Below, piece after piece: positions 28,197 through 34,463 of a stretch of 64,000 bases of DNA. The notes under the pieces are model-generated. The model saw nothing but the letters and a program-made list of their open reading frames with translations. It did not search any database and was not told the DNA's origin. Position 1 is the first letter of the stretch; each line of letters begins with the position of its first letter. This DNA is from Bacillota bacterium (lineage in GTDB: Bacteria > Bacillota > Dehalobacteriia > UBA4068 > UBA4997): contig JAETNY010000003.1 of assembly GCA_021771915.1 (NCBI GenBank), positions 62,001 to 126,000 on the forward strand, in the 5' to 3' direction. A program made the position numbers and the translations under genes.

Positions 28197-31100
28197 TTAC
28201 TTCGCAATGTTCTCACTAAATCTCATCAACAAAGCGGCGATTTCTGCACGAGTAGCGTTGCCTTGTGGACGTAAGGCGCCGTTATCGCCATTCATCAAGC
28301 CCTCGCCGATTGCCCAGCTGATAGCGTTTGTTGCCCAGCTGCTGACTTTAGCGGCGTCGTTGAAGCTGGCCACATTGCCAGCCAGAGAAGTATCATAACC
28401 CTTGTATTCAGCATAGCGGAACAAAATAGCCGCAATCTGCTCACGGGTTACATTGTCATTCGGACCAAAGCGGCCGTCTTCATAACCGTTAACGATATTG
28501 TTGCGAGCTGCCCAGGTTACAGCAGAACTGTAATACTGGCCGCCAGCAGATACGTCGCTGAATTTGCTGGAAGCAGAAACTGCCGGCTCACCTTCCATAC
28601 GGAACAGAACAGTTACAATCTGTGCACGTGTGGTCTTATCGTTCGGGCCAAAGGTGCCGTTCTCATAGCCATTCATCAAGCCGTTTTCAGCAACATAGTT
28701 GATATACTCGGCATACCAGGCGTTGGCCTCAACGTCAGAGAAACGCTTGTTAACATTTGTGGTCTCATCTTTCTTGTCGGAACCGTCAACCTTAACAAAA
28801 CTCGGGGTAATTTTAACCTTGCCGGCCGGCATTACAAATGTATACTTGGTATCGCTAACTTTGGTCAACTCAATAGTATTACCTTTCAGGTCAGTAACAG
28901 TCAGCGTATCCAGCTTATAGCCATCTGCCGGAGCCACTGTAATAGTAACAGTCTGGCCGCGGGTCGGTCTGGTCGGGGTTACGGTAACTTTGCCGCCGGT
29001 AACCTTGGTAGCAATGCTGACATTGCTGCTGGAACCGCCGCCGCCGCTAGAACCGCCACCCTTGTAAGTAAATACATAGGTGCCGATACCATTAGCGTTA
29101 ACATTATCAGTATTTACTTCGGTATTTGTACCAGCAGTAATAGTGGCTTTAACGCCCTGTACATATTCAACAACCGTAAAGGTAATAGTTTTGCCAACAG
29201 TAGCAGTGCCATCTTGCAACAACAAAATACGGCCATTGTCTGCAACTGCATCAACAGCTGCCTGCAATGTTTCATAAGCAACACCGTCTACAACAGCAAC
29301 ACCATTAAAGTCTTTATCAATTTCAAATTCGCTGAAACCATTAGGATTAGTAAAGCTAATTGCATTTCCACCATTCCAGATTTCTTTGTATGCCAAATAA
29401 CGATAAACCTTACCATTGGACTTGGTATGTTTTACAAACAGGTTCTTGTTATAATTGGACAAATTCAATACAGATTTAGCCAAAGGCAAGTAGATAGATA
29501 CCTCTTTTTCAACGGTAACCGGAATACCCTCTTCAACATTAATTGTGTTTCTGCCTGCACCCTCCAGCACCATATTTTTATCATCGGTGGTTACACGTAC
29601 ATCAGCAACAACAGTAATATCAAACTTCAGTTCTGCCGCTACCTTAATGCTCAAACGAGGCACAACAACGGTTTTAACTGCTAAGCCCTCGGGCGCAGCC
29701 AATTCCTTAACCGCGTCAGCAATCGCCTTGGCGCTAACGGTTGTGCTACCAATAGTCAGAGAACCGTCAGCATTTTCTGTCTTGGCCGCAGAAACTGCAT
29801 TTTGAATACCCTCTACCCATGTGCCTTTGGCTGCTTCAGCCGTAGCCTTTTCATCATCAGTAGCATTTGCCGGAACATCTACGCTGGTTTCCGGTGTTAC
29901 AGTAACAAACTGTTCAAGTTTCAAACCAGACAAATCAACATTATATTCAGTTATACCAACTGTAACCTTAGCCGGATTTGCTACAAATTTGCCTTCAACA
30001 TAGTCAATTTTAATACCCTCAGATGTGACGGCAATAAGAACAGTCTCATTACCATCCATATAGCCTAATTGACAATACAGTGCAATCTCTTCATCTGCGC
30101 CAACATTACCGGTAACTACAATTTTCTTGCCTGCCTTATCAGCTACGGCCGTTACTTTCTCCGGATTGCAGATAATTTTAATAATTTCCAGTTCTGCCCA
30201 CTGTGCATAAACTGTTGTGTCCTTGGTGAACACGGTTGCCGCAGTAATCTTGTTGCCGCCCTCTTTAGCGTCAAACCAGCCCAGGAAAGCATAACCCTCT
30301 TTATTAGCGTACGGCATTATTTCTACCTTGCTGTCAACAGTCTTAACCGTGCCGACAACCTTATCTTCGTCCATAAAGGTAACCGTATATTCAACAGCAA
30401 CCTTTTTTGTCCATTTAGCAACCAAAGTAATATTATCATTAATAGGTGTTGTAAAATCAAAAGGCTCGGTTGCGTCTTTTGCATACCAACCAGCAAAATC
30501 AAAACCAGACTTGGTCGGCTGATTAGGCTCAGTAGCGGTCTTCCCTGCTTCAACTTTCTGGTCTGCAACCAAGCTGCCACCGTCAGTATCAAAGGTTACG
30601 GTATAAACACCTGTACCCTCCGGCTTAACAGTGATTGTGGAAGTACCTTTAATATTGGAATTGCCTTTAGCAGTTGCGGTAATAGTGGCAGAGCCCTCTT
30701 TTACAGCAGTAACAATACCATTTTCATCAACAGTAGCAACTGCTGGGTCGCTGCTGCTCCAGATTACAGTTTTATCAAATGCACCTGTGCCGGTAACAGT
30801 AGCAATCAGCTGCACAGTAGCTTCATCGCCACCAACAACCAAAGTTGTAGTAATCGGAGTAACTGTTACTTTAGTTATTGTAGCTTCCTCTTCATTCTTA
30901 GTCCACTGCGCATAAATAGTTGTATCAGCGTCAAAGGTTGTATTTTCAGTAACCTTATCACCATCGGTGGCAGCAGTGAACCAGCCATTAAAGGTATAGC
31001 CCTCTTTGGTCGGTACCGGCAAAGTACCAATAGCAGCACCCTTGCTAATTGTAACAATATTGTCACCACTAATAGTACCACCATTACCATCAAAGGTAAT

Positions 31101-31517
31101 TTTTACTTCTTCAACTTCAGCGGCTTCAACAGTCAAAGTTGTTTTTGCCACACCCTGGCCACCGTCCTTGGTAACGGTAACACTGATTTCAGCGGTACCT
31201 GTGGCCTGCGCATCGGCAACAACCTTTGCTGTTTTGCCATTGCCTGTTACACTAACATCATTGTTATTGCTAGACCAGGCAAAAGTATAACCGGTCATTT
31301 CGGTATCAGACTGATTGCTGTAAACAATATCTTTTACAGTAAGCGTAACACCAGCTTCATCACCAGCTGTAATTTTAGTTGGATTGCTGGTATCAAAATT
31401 CACCGTATAAACATTGTCAGCCTGAGCCGTAGGCTCATCAGCCGCAAACACAGAAAACGGCATCATTGTGAAAACCATGCAAAAAATTAACAGCTTGGCT
31501 AAAAATTTTTTACTCAT
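28197..31517 (-). CDS. Large surface protein: signal peptide, Ig-like (Big2) and InlB B-repeat domains, three C-terminal SLH domains
   Basis: Signal MSKKFLAKLLIFCMVFTMMPFSVFA; repeats (YTFNGWFTAATDGDKVTENTTFDADTTIYAQW); Big2 (VIWSSSDPAVATVDENGIVTAVKEGSATITAT); SLH x3 (FSDVEANAWYAEYINYVAENGLMNGYENGTFGPNDKTTRAQIVTVLFR). Confidence 0.95.
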   Translation of the reverse strand: MSKKFLAKLLIFCMVFTMMPFSVFAADEPTAQADNVYTVNFDTSNPTKITAGDEAGVTLTVKDIVYSNQSDTEMTGYTFAWSSNNNDVSVTGNGKTAKVVADAQATGTAEISVTVTKDGGQGVAKTTLTVEAAEVEEVKITFDGNGGTISGDNIVTISKGAAIGTLPVPTKEGYTFNGWFTAATDGDKVTENTTFDADTTIYAQWTKNEEEATITKVTVTPITTTLVVGGDEATVQLIATVTGTGAFDKTVIWSSSDPAVATVDENGIVTAVKEGSATITATAKGNSNIKGTSTITVKPEGTGVYTVTFDTDGGSLVADQKVEAGKTATEPNQPTKSGFDFAGWYAKDATEPFDFTTPINDNITLVAKWTKKVAVEYTVTFMDEDKVVGTVKTVDSKVEIMPYANKEGYAFLGWFDAKEGGNKITAATVFTKDTTVYAQWAELEIIKIICNPEKVTAVADKAGKKIVVTGNVGADEEIALYCQLGYMDGNETVLIAVTSEGIKIDYVEGKFVANPAKVTVGITEYNVDLSGLKLEQFVTVTPETSVDVPANATDDEKATAEAAKGTWVEGIQNAVSAAKTENADGSLTIGSTTVSAKAIADAVKELAAPEGLAVKTVVVPRLSIKVAAELKFDITVVADVRVTTDDKNMVLEGAGRNTINVEEGIPVTVEKEVSIYLPLAKSVLNLSNYNKNLFVKHTKSNGKVYRYLAYKEIWNGGNAISFTNPNGFSEFEIDKDFNGVAVVDGVAYETLQAAVDAVADNGRILLLQDGTATVGKTITFTVVEYVQGVKATITAGTNTEVNTDNVNANGIGTYVFTYKGGGSSGGGGSSSNVSIATKVTGGKVTVTPTRPTRGQTVTITVAPADGYKLDTLTVTDLKGNTIELTKVSDTKYTFVMPAGKVKITPSFVKVDGSDKKDETTNVNKRFSDVEANAWYAEYINYVAENGLMNGYENGTFGPNDKTTRAQIVTVLFRMEGEPAVSASSKFSDVSAGGQYYSSAVTWAARNNIVNGYEDGRFGPNDNVTREQIAAILFRYAEYKGYDTSLAGNVASFNDAAKVSSWATNAISWAIGEGLMNGDNGALRPQGNATRAEIAALLMRFSENIAK

Positions 31518-31687
31518 TTTTTTGTCTTTCTCCTTTCTTAAAAATCAAAACTTCATACATCTATAACAACATGAAACAATATCGTTAACAAAAACCACCT
31601 CCCAGTTTACGTTAAAAAAATACTTTAAACTAAATTTATATTTTTTTAACCTTGGTGAATAATAATATAAGAAAAAGTAAATAAAAG

Positions 31688-31717
31688 CTTTCATAAAGTG
31701 TTTTTACTTTACGAAAA
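31688..31717. repeat. Putative recombinase crossover site A (11-8-11)
   Basis: CTTTCATAAAG-TGTTTTTA-CTTTACGAAAA; TGTTTTTACTTTACGAAAA recurs inverted at 33375-33393. Confidence 0.65.
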
Positions 31718-31810
31718 AACGCCGACAAAGCCAACTCCAACCTGTTTTTTAAACAAACTGACCAGAATTTTTGACGGCGATAAAAATTTTTATAAGTTTT
31801 TAAAACAACA

Positions 31811-31846
31811 AACACCCACGCCGCTTGGCCAAACAGCGCAGGTGTT
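31811..31846 (-). terminator. Hairpin terminator downstream of recombinase gene
   Basis: AACACCTGCGC...GCGTGGGTGTT stem with following T-rich tract on minus strand. Confidence 0.55.
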
Positions 31847-31918
31847 ATAAAATGTATACAGGAAAAGCTGTAATAACAACGGTTCGTCTTGATTTGACTT
31901 AAAAATTTTTAATTCTTA

Positions 31919-31951
31919 AAATCGTCACCTGGCAGAGTGGCGATTCTTTTT
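31919..31951. terminator. Hairpin downstream of recombinase gene (possible bidirectional terminator)
   Basis: AATCGTCAC-CTGGCAGA-GTGGCGATT followed by CTTTTT. Confidence 0.5.
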
Positions 31952-32032
31952 ATGCATACGCTTAAATATTATCGTGACCATGAAAGCCCCAATATGAAAA
32001 GTTATCCGTATCGGCATAATCTCACAACCACA

Positions 32033-33172
32033 TCAGTCAAAATTTAAACCGTGCAGGGTGTTCACAAGCTCCATATCGGCGCGTTTCTGTGCCAGACTGG
32101 GGTGTACATAAAGCTGCATGGTCGTGCGGATATTGGCATGACCCAAAATTTCGCTCAGACTTTTAACATTGCCGCCCAAAGCAATAAAACGGCTGGCAAA
32201 AGTATGCCGCAATACATGAAAATTGCGTACTGGTATACCGCAACGCTTTAGAAGGCTGGCAAAACGATATTGCATCGTGCGCGGTTCTAATGGCCGTTGA
32301 CCGCCGAAAATATAAGACTGTTCTGCCCGAATCTTAGCCGAACGGGCAAGCAACGCCAGCAAATCAGCCGTTAACGGTATAGTACGCCGGGCGGCTTCTG
32401 TTTTCGGCGTTTGCAGCAAAAGTTCAGAATGACCGTTTTGCGTCACTCTTTGCACCGTTCGCTGCACCGTCAGCGTCTGCGCCGTCCAGTCAATATCGGA
32501 CCAGCGCAGCGCACAAACCTCCCCCAAACGCAAACCGCTGTTTAAACAAAGCAAAACCGCGGCCTGACTGACAGAGGATGCCGCCAAAAGATTTTCCGTC
32601 AGTTGACAAACCTCCGGTTCTGTAAAAATCTCCGGCTTGCCGGCACAGCGCGCCGCCGGCGGCCGCAGGTTCAAAATTGCCGCAGACTGGGCAATGGCAA
32701 AATCACGCGCCGCCATTTTGACGGCGGATTTTATCAGGCTCAATATATCGGCTATTGTTTTGGCCGCCAAACCGCCCTGCTTATCCAAACGACCACTTTG
32801 CATTTTGTTAGCCATAAAAGCGGCAATTTTTTGCGCCGTCAGCTTACTTAGCAGACAGCCGCCTAGTTCCGGCAAAATTTGAGTATTCAGCAAACCGGCA
32901 TATCGAGCATAGCTGGAGGGTTTTAAAATCGGCTGCTTTCGATGCAGCCAATCAGCAAAAAGTTTCTGCACAGTCAGCTGACTGCCAGGTTGGGGCTTGG
33001 CATTCTGGCTGGCCGCCAGCTGCTGCTTGCAAATCAGAAGTTTTTGACGCACCGCTGCGCAGGTTCTGCCATAAACAGAAACATACTTCTGGCGCCCCTC
33101 CTGCCACACCAGATAACGCCCCTCCCAACGGCCGTCACGCCTTTTATAAATGTTTTCTCCTCTTTTGCTCAT
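32033..33172 (-). CDS. Tyrosine recombinase / phage-type integrase
   Basis: N-terminal arm-binding region (ENIYKRRDGRWEGRYL); catalytic motifs SGLRLGEVCALRW, FHVLRHTFASRFIALGGNVKSLSEILGHANIRTTMQLYVH. Confidence 0.95.
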   Translation of the reverse strand: MSKRGENIYKRRDGRWEGRYLVWQEGRQKYVSVYGRTCAAVRQKLLICKQQLAASQNAKPQPGSQLTVQKLFADWLHRKQPILKPSSYARYAGLLNTQILPELGGCLLSKLTAQKIAAFMANKMQSGRLDKQGGLAAKTIADILSLIKSAVKMAARDFAIAQSAAILNLRPPAARCAGKPEIFTEPEVCQLTENLLAASSVSQAAVLLCLNSGLRLGEVCALRWSDIDWTAQTLTVQRTVQRVTQNGHSELLLQTPKTEAARRTIPLTADLLALLARSAKIRAEQSYIFGGQRPLEPRTMQYRFASLLKRCGIPVRNFHVLRHTFASRFIALGGNVKSLSEILGHANIRTTMQLYVHPSLAQKRADMELVNTLHGLNFD

Positions 33173-33319
33173 CTGATTACTCCCCTTTTGAGTCTAACTA
33201 CGACAACTTTTTGACCATTTTTTTGACGGCTAAAAGCCTTTTATAATGACAATTAACTGCCTAAAAAATAGAATTTTTGTTTTACTTGTAAAAAAGTTCA
33301 ATAAATTTTTTATAAATTA

Positions 33320-33348
33320 TTGACTTGTCTGCCATAAAACCTTATAAT
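33320..33348 (+). promoter_or_regulatory. Consensus sigma70 promoter inside the putative invertible segment, reading outward (rightward)
   Basis: TTGACT-N17-TATAAT. Confidence 0.7.
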
Positions 33349-33374
33349 ATAGATAAGAAAAAGTAAAAGCAGGA

Positions 33375-33404
33375 TTTTCGTAAAGTAAAAACATTTTACG
33401 AAAA
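33375..33404. repeat. Putative recombinase crossover site B (11-8-11, inverted relative to A)
   Basis: TTTTCGTAAAG-TAAAAACA-TTTTACGAAAA. Confidence 0.65.
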
Positions 33405-33445
33405 CCCTGCTTATTTTAATCGCCGCCGCAGTTTTAAAACAATGC

Positions 33446-33480
33446 AAAATCCCTCTTAAAACAGCGTTAAGAGGGATTTT
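33446..33480. terminator. Bidirectional terminator between site B and panE-like gene
   Basis: AAAATCCCTCTTAA-AACAGCG-TTAAGAGGGATTTT. Confidence 0.75.
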
Positions 33481-33530
33481 GATGTGAACACTTCGCTATG
33501 GCAAGGCCAACTTATATGTTATTAATATTT

Positions 33531-34463
33531 TTACTGCTGACTTTTCAGCTGGTTCTGCCGCTCCTTGCCATGAATAATCTCTCGCAAAACGGCATTAATC
33601 GGAGTCAGGACGCCAGCCGCCGCCCCATATTCCTCCACAATGCCGGCAAAATAATCGACCTCGGTAATCCGCCCGGCCTTAATGTCCTGATGCATACTGG
33701 TTTGCGCCGTGCGCGGAAAAGCCGCCATAAAACGCTCGGTTTCCTTGCGGTCAGCCTCCGTTAAATCCACACCGCGCGCCTTGGCCAGTTCCACAACCTC
33801 CTGCATAGCCGCAGAAGCCAGCCGAAAGTAATTTTCAACCTCGCTGCACTCATAAATAAAGCAGTCCACAGCCGCCGTCACCTGATTATAGCCCACGTTC
33901 AACATGAACTTTTTCCAGATAGTACGTTCCATATCGGCGGCAATCTCCAAAGGAATGGGCGTACGGCTCAAAATCTGGCGTACCCGCTCAACCTCCGGCG
34001 CATAAGGCTCCGTATTGCGCTCCCAACCAAACTGCAATACGCCGCGCGTGGTAAAATCCACCGCATTAACCGTGCGCCGCGCGTCAATACCCATGGCAAT
34101 GCCAAACAGCACCCTAGCCTGCGGAAAAGCTGCGCGCAAAGTCGGCGTGGCGCTGATACCATTCAACAGCGGTACAATGATAGTGCCATCGCCCACAAAA
34201 GGCCGCATATCGTCCAGCGCGTCCGCCAGACCGTAATTTTTAACGCAGACGAAAATCACCTCCGCCGGCACCACATCTTCGGCCGGCCGCTCCACGCGCA
34301 GGGGATAGCGCGCATCGTTCACCTGCAAACCCTCGGCCTGCAAACGGTCATACCGACTGCCGCTGGCAATCGCAAAAAAATCATTGGGATAAGCATTATA
34401 CAAATCCATGCCAAAAACCGAGCCCACGGCTCCCATACCAATCATTGCTATTCGCATTTTCAT
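33531..34463 (-). CDS. panE: Ketopantoate reductase (ApbA/PanE) family protein
   Basis: MRIAMIGMGAVGSVFGMDL; IFVCVKNYGLADAL; GRITEVDYFAGIVEEYG. Confidence 0.85.
   Translation of the reverse strand: MKMRIAMIGMGAVGSVFGMDLYNAYPNDFFAIASGSRYDRLQAEGLQVNDARYPLRVERPAEDVVPAEVIFVCVKNYGLADALDDMRPFVGDGTIIVPLLNGISATPTLRAAFPQARVLFGIAMGIDARRTVNAVDFTTRGVLQFGWERNTEPYAPEVERVRQILSRTPIPLEIAADMERTIWKKFMLNVGYNQVTAAVDCFIYECSEVENYFRLASAAMQEVVELAKARGVDLTEADRKETERFMAAFPRTAQTSMHQDIKAGRITEVDYFAGIVEEYGAAAGVLTPINAVLREIIHGKERQNQLKSQQ

Follow-up and report, generated by a model that had tools for sequence, protein, structure and literature searches.

A 1.7-kb segment lying between two crossover sites, A and B, in a 64,000-nucleotide stretch of DNA from an uncultured Bacillota bacterium (hereafter the window) is probably a self-contained invertible promoter cassette that carries its own recombinase and would switch a neighbouring gene for an SLH surface protein. 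An earlier note on the same DNA had proposed an invertible promoter cassette, and this reading is supported by the sites, spacers and promoter of a family of relatives and by junctions found in Faecalibacterium longum. In the proposed mechanism the enclosed recombinase would bind both core sites, and probably the arm motifs too, and would join A with B via their identical 8-nt spacers; since these spacers are inverted, inversion would follow, and not excision. The sequenced orientation would be OFF, with the promoter firing to the right, through the site-B hairpin, toward a convergent gene. After inversion (ON) the promoter would lie 227 nt upstream of the SLH gene, reading into it, and the recombinase would travel together with the promoter.

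Table 1. Features of the candidate cassette and of its surroundings (positions in the window).
Feature	Position	Strand	Description
Target gene (inferred), 1106-aa surface protein	28197-31517	-	Signal peptide, Big_2, Listeria-Bacteroides repeats, three SLH domains
Leader, site A to SLH start	31518-31687	-	Near-identical in G007 next to the ORF
Crossover site A (left)	31688-31717	.	CTTTCATAAAG-TGTTTTTA-CTTTACGAAAA; 11-nt arms, 8-nt spacer TGTTTTTA
Putative arm-type recombinase motif, left	31757-31780	+	CTGACCAGAATTTTTGACGGCGA; TGACGG enrichment and strand bias in family
Remnant convergent antisense promoter	31811-31853	+	TTGGCC-17-TAAAAT; overlaps terminator of the small-ORF transcript (-)
Small type-I-toxin-like ORF	31928-32017	-	MPIRITFHIGAFMVTIIFKRMHKKNRHSAR; enclosed in the segment
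Tyrosine recombinase	32033-33172	-	379 aa, integrase type, Phage_int_SAM_3 + Phage_integrase
Putative arm-type recombinase motif, right	33207-33230	+	TTTTTGACCATTTTTTTGACGGC; TGACGG enrichment and strand bias in family
Outward promoter	33320-33348	+	TTGACT-17-TATAAT; position and strand conserved in family
Hairpin on site B and flanks	33367-33412	.	-23.3 kcal/mol
Crossover site B (right)	33375-33404	.	TTTTCGTAAAG-TAAAAACA-TTTTACGAAAA; spacer TAAAAACA, inverted copy of A
Near-symmetric terminator-like hairpin beyond site B	33445-33481	.	No clean U tract in + direction (ATTTTGATG)

The coordinates and sequences that the earlier note had given for sites A and B, and their identical inverted spacers, were exact on recheck. 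Site A and the reverse complement of site B are identical at 27 of 30 positions, and the two 8-nt spacers are exact reverse complements of each other. The inverted match score between the two intergenic regions was 23, a value reached by none of 500 dinucleotide shuffles (mean 10.6, maximum 16), and in direct orientation the same regions scored 15, below the inverted score. When the whole 2.3-Mb genome was scanned for the arm motif TTTCGTAAAG-N8-CTTTACGAAA (8-nt spacer, up to 3 mismatches allowed), only A and B were found, so that no trans-acting sites were detected elsewhere in the genome, and the control gave 0 matches. The shuffles and the presence of only two genomic sites bear out the claim that the cassette is bounded by inverted crossover sites. 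In the window, therefore, paired inverted sites flank a promoter, as in an inverton, and direct-repeat cores of the attL/attR type were not found at the segment ends. An exact same-orientation repeat, ATAAGAAAAAGTAAA, which is absent from the earlier note, lies beside both sites (31667-31681 and 33353-33367), and inversion would let its two copies pair within the leader RNA.

The enclosed recombinase has conserved residues R215, K257, H319, R322, H345 and Y355, which we take to have the same catalytic roles as in tyrosine recombinases. Both a SAM-like core-binding domain and a catalytic tyrosine domain were found, as in ICE-type integrases, and the closest solved relative of residues 131-369 was the Tn1549 integrase (PDB 6emy/6emz, E = 7e-15). 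The ORF sits between the two sites, as in a Hin-like layout; the Hin family proper, whose members are serine recombinases, was ruled out by the Phage_integrase assignment of the protein. The TGACGG repeats, the relationship to Tn1549 Int and a conserved N-terminal motif (KRGENIYKRxDGRWEGR) together suggest an arm-binding recombinase, and the TGACGG motifs would be its binding sites. The earlier note had described the recombinase as the only gene between the sites; it is indeed there, but a small type-I-toxin-like cassette is enclosed as well. Related peptides of roughly 30 aa (MPIRITFHIGxFTITIxVKRxHKKNRHSAK) have copies in G000:C6, G005, G006 and G007, with up to 14 matches in G005 and none among 20 relatives outside the genus. 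In most copies the start is preceded by a strong promoter ~100 nt away and followed, ~160 nt on, by a convergent antisense promoter; we regard these peptides as candidates for a type I toxin-antitoxin family.

Around three other recombinases of the genus (64, 54 and 49% identical) the sites keep this arm pattern and have different spacers, and at each of these three loci the spacer is identical on both sides and inverted. Such co-variation is expected if both sites must pair during strand exchange, and we regard it as the strongest evidence for inversion that the sequences offer.

The genomes of 85,462 species were scanned, and the 80 best of more than 550 recombinase relatives were retained. 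Among the 78 of these 80 best relatives with enough flank, 67 had an inverted pair with a score of at least 15 across the recombinase, and each paired-site relative has its own spacer. One site usually lay 200-300 nt ahead of the recombinase start, the other 50-105 nt past its stop. With the same scoring, distant tyrosine recombinases reached 7-12, the exceptions being L013 (gene duplication) and L177 at 14. A quick tree placed all 65 cassette-bearing rows in one part, with 27 generic integrases, none of them with a cassette, outside it; this grouping is weakly held, because its support is 81. For the relatives without a downstream site, we considered a short invertible promoter whose recombinase lies outside it and rejected this, as no consistent upstream pair was found (one 14-nt pair occurred in L121), and a scan of viral contigs for the site motif returned none.

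The family also shares the promoter and the putative arm motifs. Between the site and the recombinase start, the best promoter of 63 non-redundant members matched on average 10.5 of 12 positions in the outward direction, against 8.9 inward and 8.8 in shuffled sequences, and a promoter with at least 10 of 12 was present outward in 51 of 63 members versus 10 of 63 inward. A 17-nt spacer is found in most of the outward promoters, whose distance to the site is mostly 15-40 nt. The TGACGG motif occurred on one strand of the inner flanks in 38/61 upstream and 30/61 downstream cases, and on the opposite strand in 1 and 2, respectively; the genus form of the arm motif is often TGACCA-N6-TGACGG. On the recombinase-3′ side, the first gene is directed away from the cassette at 42 of 53 loci, and on the promoter side this holds for 21 of 46 (Fisher p = 0.0007), a bias which suggests that the assembled copies are mostly OFF. 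The window fits this pattern, with a convergent gene ahead of its promoter and, across the cassette, an SLH gene directed away from it. The neighbours of the family cassettes are diverse and include TadZ-like, kinase, LRR, response regulator and TnpB-like proteins. A TnpB-like gene lies beside the cassette in seven Lachnospiraceae-type loci (L106, L150, L120, L125, L130, L139 and L111); PF07282 was detected in six of them, the RuvC aspartate is missing, and GIDxG is changed to GLSVG, GLAVG or YIHIG. These TnpB-like proteins may be nuclease-dead regulators of the TldR type, controlled by an invertible promoter.

Inversion itself was seen in one relative. Several species share one identical ICE-borne cassette, and in the cultured isolate Faecalibacterium longum CLA-AA-H243 exact 125-mers matched the reference left junction in contig C41, the inverted left junction in contig C76 and the inverted right junction in contig C9. 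Both orientations were thus present in the sequenced material, unless the isolate has two oppositely oriented copies, which would themselves still need an inversion at some time; hence a member of the family really inverts. Flipped near-identical ICE copies were found only in F. longum, and none were found in Butyricicoccus, Blautia, Agathobaculum, Negativibacillus or Eisenbergiella. Among less closely related loci, several pairs have homologous flanks on opposite sides of the cassette, for instance L036/L037, with 87% over 1034 bp. The cassettes of these two loci (G007:C127 and G005:C55) adjoin ICE genes, including a CD1110-family VirB4 ATPase. The proximity of relatives to ICE genes, the resemblance of the recombinase to ICE integrases (Tn1549 Int) and the same-orientation repeat adjoining both sites might also be read as the remnant of an integrated mobile element, with A and B as attL and attR of a small integrase-bearing element. 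However, the core spacers are inverted, and not direct, in the window and in the relatives examined, the direct match is poorer than the inverted one (15 < 23), and inverted junctions are present in F. longum, so that this reading, already disfavoured, is extremely unlikely.

The promoter TTGACT-N17-TATAAT, which the earlier note had described as firing outward, was reproduced, and because it fits the position and spacing of the family promoters a chance match is unlikely. Between its -10 box and the matching portion of site B lie 26 nt, and in the present orientation the outward transcript runs straight into the site-B hairpin. Beyond site B, a terminator had been placed at 33446-33480; the hairpin is real, but a clean U tract is missing in the + direction, and it may serve the convergent gene (33531-34463). 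The earlier note had also expected inversion to move the two hairpins downstream of the recombinase away from the SLH gene, yet after in silico inversion the leader still contains a hairpin followed by a T-rich tail (-26.2 kcal/mol, flanks included). This hairpin might attenuate SLH expression in part, and the family gives no general support for such a role. An Rfam search of the segment gave nothing above a gathering score.

These hairpins bear on another reading, in which inversion is real but expression is set by the hybrid junction hairpin through attenuation, and not by promoter direction, as proposed for cwpV of Clostridioides difficile (PMC2784873). The site hairpins are stable, some have T tracts, and cwpV is a precedent. 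Against this, a strong and positioned promoter is found inside the segment across the family, and T tracts showed no difference between gene-facing and other sides; being no commoner on the gene-less sides (p = 0.33), they also do not point to the site hairpin as a general OFF-state attenuator in the family. We consider attenuation as the main control very unlikely, and a change in promoter direction remains the favoured reading.

For the SLH gene the earlier note had predicted a promoter ~230 nt upstream, reading in, after inversion, and the in silico inversion agrees with it: the -10 box lands 227 nt from the start codon. No good promoter of its own was found for this gene, as the leader matches at best 8-9 of 12 consensus positions. 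From its position, the lack of a good own promoter and the gene orientation in the family, we infer that the SLH gene depends on the switch, although those matches of 8-9 of 12 could drive it independently. When the gene was compared with its counterpart in the sister genome G007, the leader and the start of the signal peptide were 93% identical in DNA and the last 858 nt 97% identical. The gene is a mosaic between the sister species (window 28197-31517 versus G007:C23), in that the middle ~2.4 kb has been replaced by dissimilar sequence, as expected of a variable surface antigen.

The earlier note had suggested that related genomes be compared for both orientations. For the window locus only OFF was found, in the one genome and in the sister G007, with no inverted copy in either; inverted junctions were found in the F. 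longum relative. G007 has the same gene order and orientation, as far as its two contigs show, and four arm-motif sites, two around each of two recombinases. Its left site equals site A exactly, and its right site differs from site B at a few positions, one of them beside the spacer, so that no special constraint is visible there; the switch may be dying in the G007 lineage. The orientation shared by both species and the substituted site B of G007 are points in favour of a locked relic, i.e., an ancestral cassette that no longer inverts, in which case the SLH gene would be permanently OFF or would rely on a weak promoter of its own. The enclosed toxin-like cassette (31811-32017), which looks decayed in the window, points the same way, as it leaves the downstream site 318 nt from the recombinase, compared with 50-105 nt in most relatives. 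Nevertheless, the window sites pair well and have identical spacers, the intact recombinase shares 96% identity with that of G007, and the promoter and the putative arm motifs are also intact. A locked relic is therefore rather unlikely, and the window copy of the cassette would still invert.

Invertible promoters are already known, as are recombinases inside their own segment. The Tn1549 integrase moves a conjugative transposon, whereas the window sites are arranged for inversion. The window differs from Hin, a serine recombinase, in having an integrase-type tyrosine recombinase, arm-like motifs and an 8-nt spacer. In the Salmonella Hin system the recombinase gene lies inside the inverted segment, and an outward promoter drives a neighbouring surface-structure gene (PMC2784873, PMC5903667); the window likewise has the recombinase inside the segment and an outward promoter beside a surface-protein gene, and can be described as Hin-like in layout, with an ICE-integrase-type tyrosine recombinase as its enzyme. 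The fim switch of Escherichia coli (FimB/FimE) shares with the window a tyrosine recombinase, an invertible promoter and a surface structure, but its recombinases lie outside a short 296-bp segment (PMC5903667). In Providencia stuartii, an 844-bp fimbrial segment, putatively inverting and bounded by 14-bp imperfect repeats, encloses a recombinase gene (PMC5903667), and so resembles the window in having an enclosed recombinase next to a surface-structure locus, a likeness of layout in a different phylum. The cwpV/RecV system of C. difficile, to which the earlier note had likened the cassette, also places inversion by a tyrosine recombinase upstream of the gene for a cell-wall protein, there in a clostridium. 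Its 195-bp inversion segment holds no promoter and is proposed to act by terminator formation (PMC2784873), and its recombinase is encoded elsewhere, whereas the window segment has both promoter and recombinase. The analogy was thus wrong in mechanism: cwpV is no precedent for an invertible promoter, the promoter inside the segment argues against a cwpV-type switch in the window, and by layout Hin is the better precedent. The invertons of gut Clostridia in group 139, paired with invertase group 35, have a tyrosine-type recombinase nearby and show orientation changes in reads (PMC11892184). By description, group 139 is alike in its clostridial inverted repeats with a nearby tyrosine-type recombinase, but in the two examples given only 206 and 228 bp separate the repeats (PMC11892184), unlike the 1.7 kb of the window. 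In the literature searched, with subscription papers mostly outside it, we found no account in which this recombinase clade is described together with its paired sites, outward promoter and arm motifs, and novelty is unproven.

Beyond the window, we lean towards the view that a large unnamed ICE-integrase-like clade across Clostridia is a portable self-flipping module, made up in order of site, promoter, arm motifs, recombinase and second site, which has come to stand before very different genes. If so, the module fronts SLH surface proteins, TadZ-like proteins, kinases, conjugation loci and apparently nuclease-dead TnpB-like proteins. Many bacterial DNA switches have been found by read mapping, and the recombinase often is unassigned. 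Since each recombinase of this clade carries its own sites, promoter and spacer, the switch, the enzyme and the candidate target can be read from sequence alone, recombinase-site pairing would become directly testable in many Clostridia genomes, and the cassettes would mark candidate phase-variable surface antigens, here the SLH protein.
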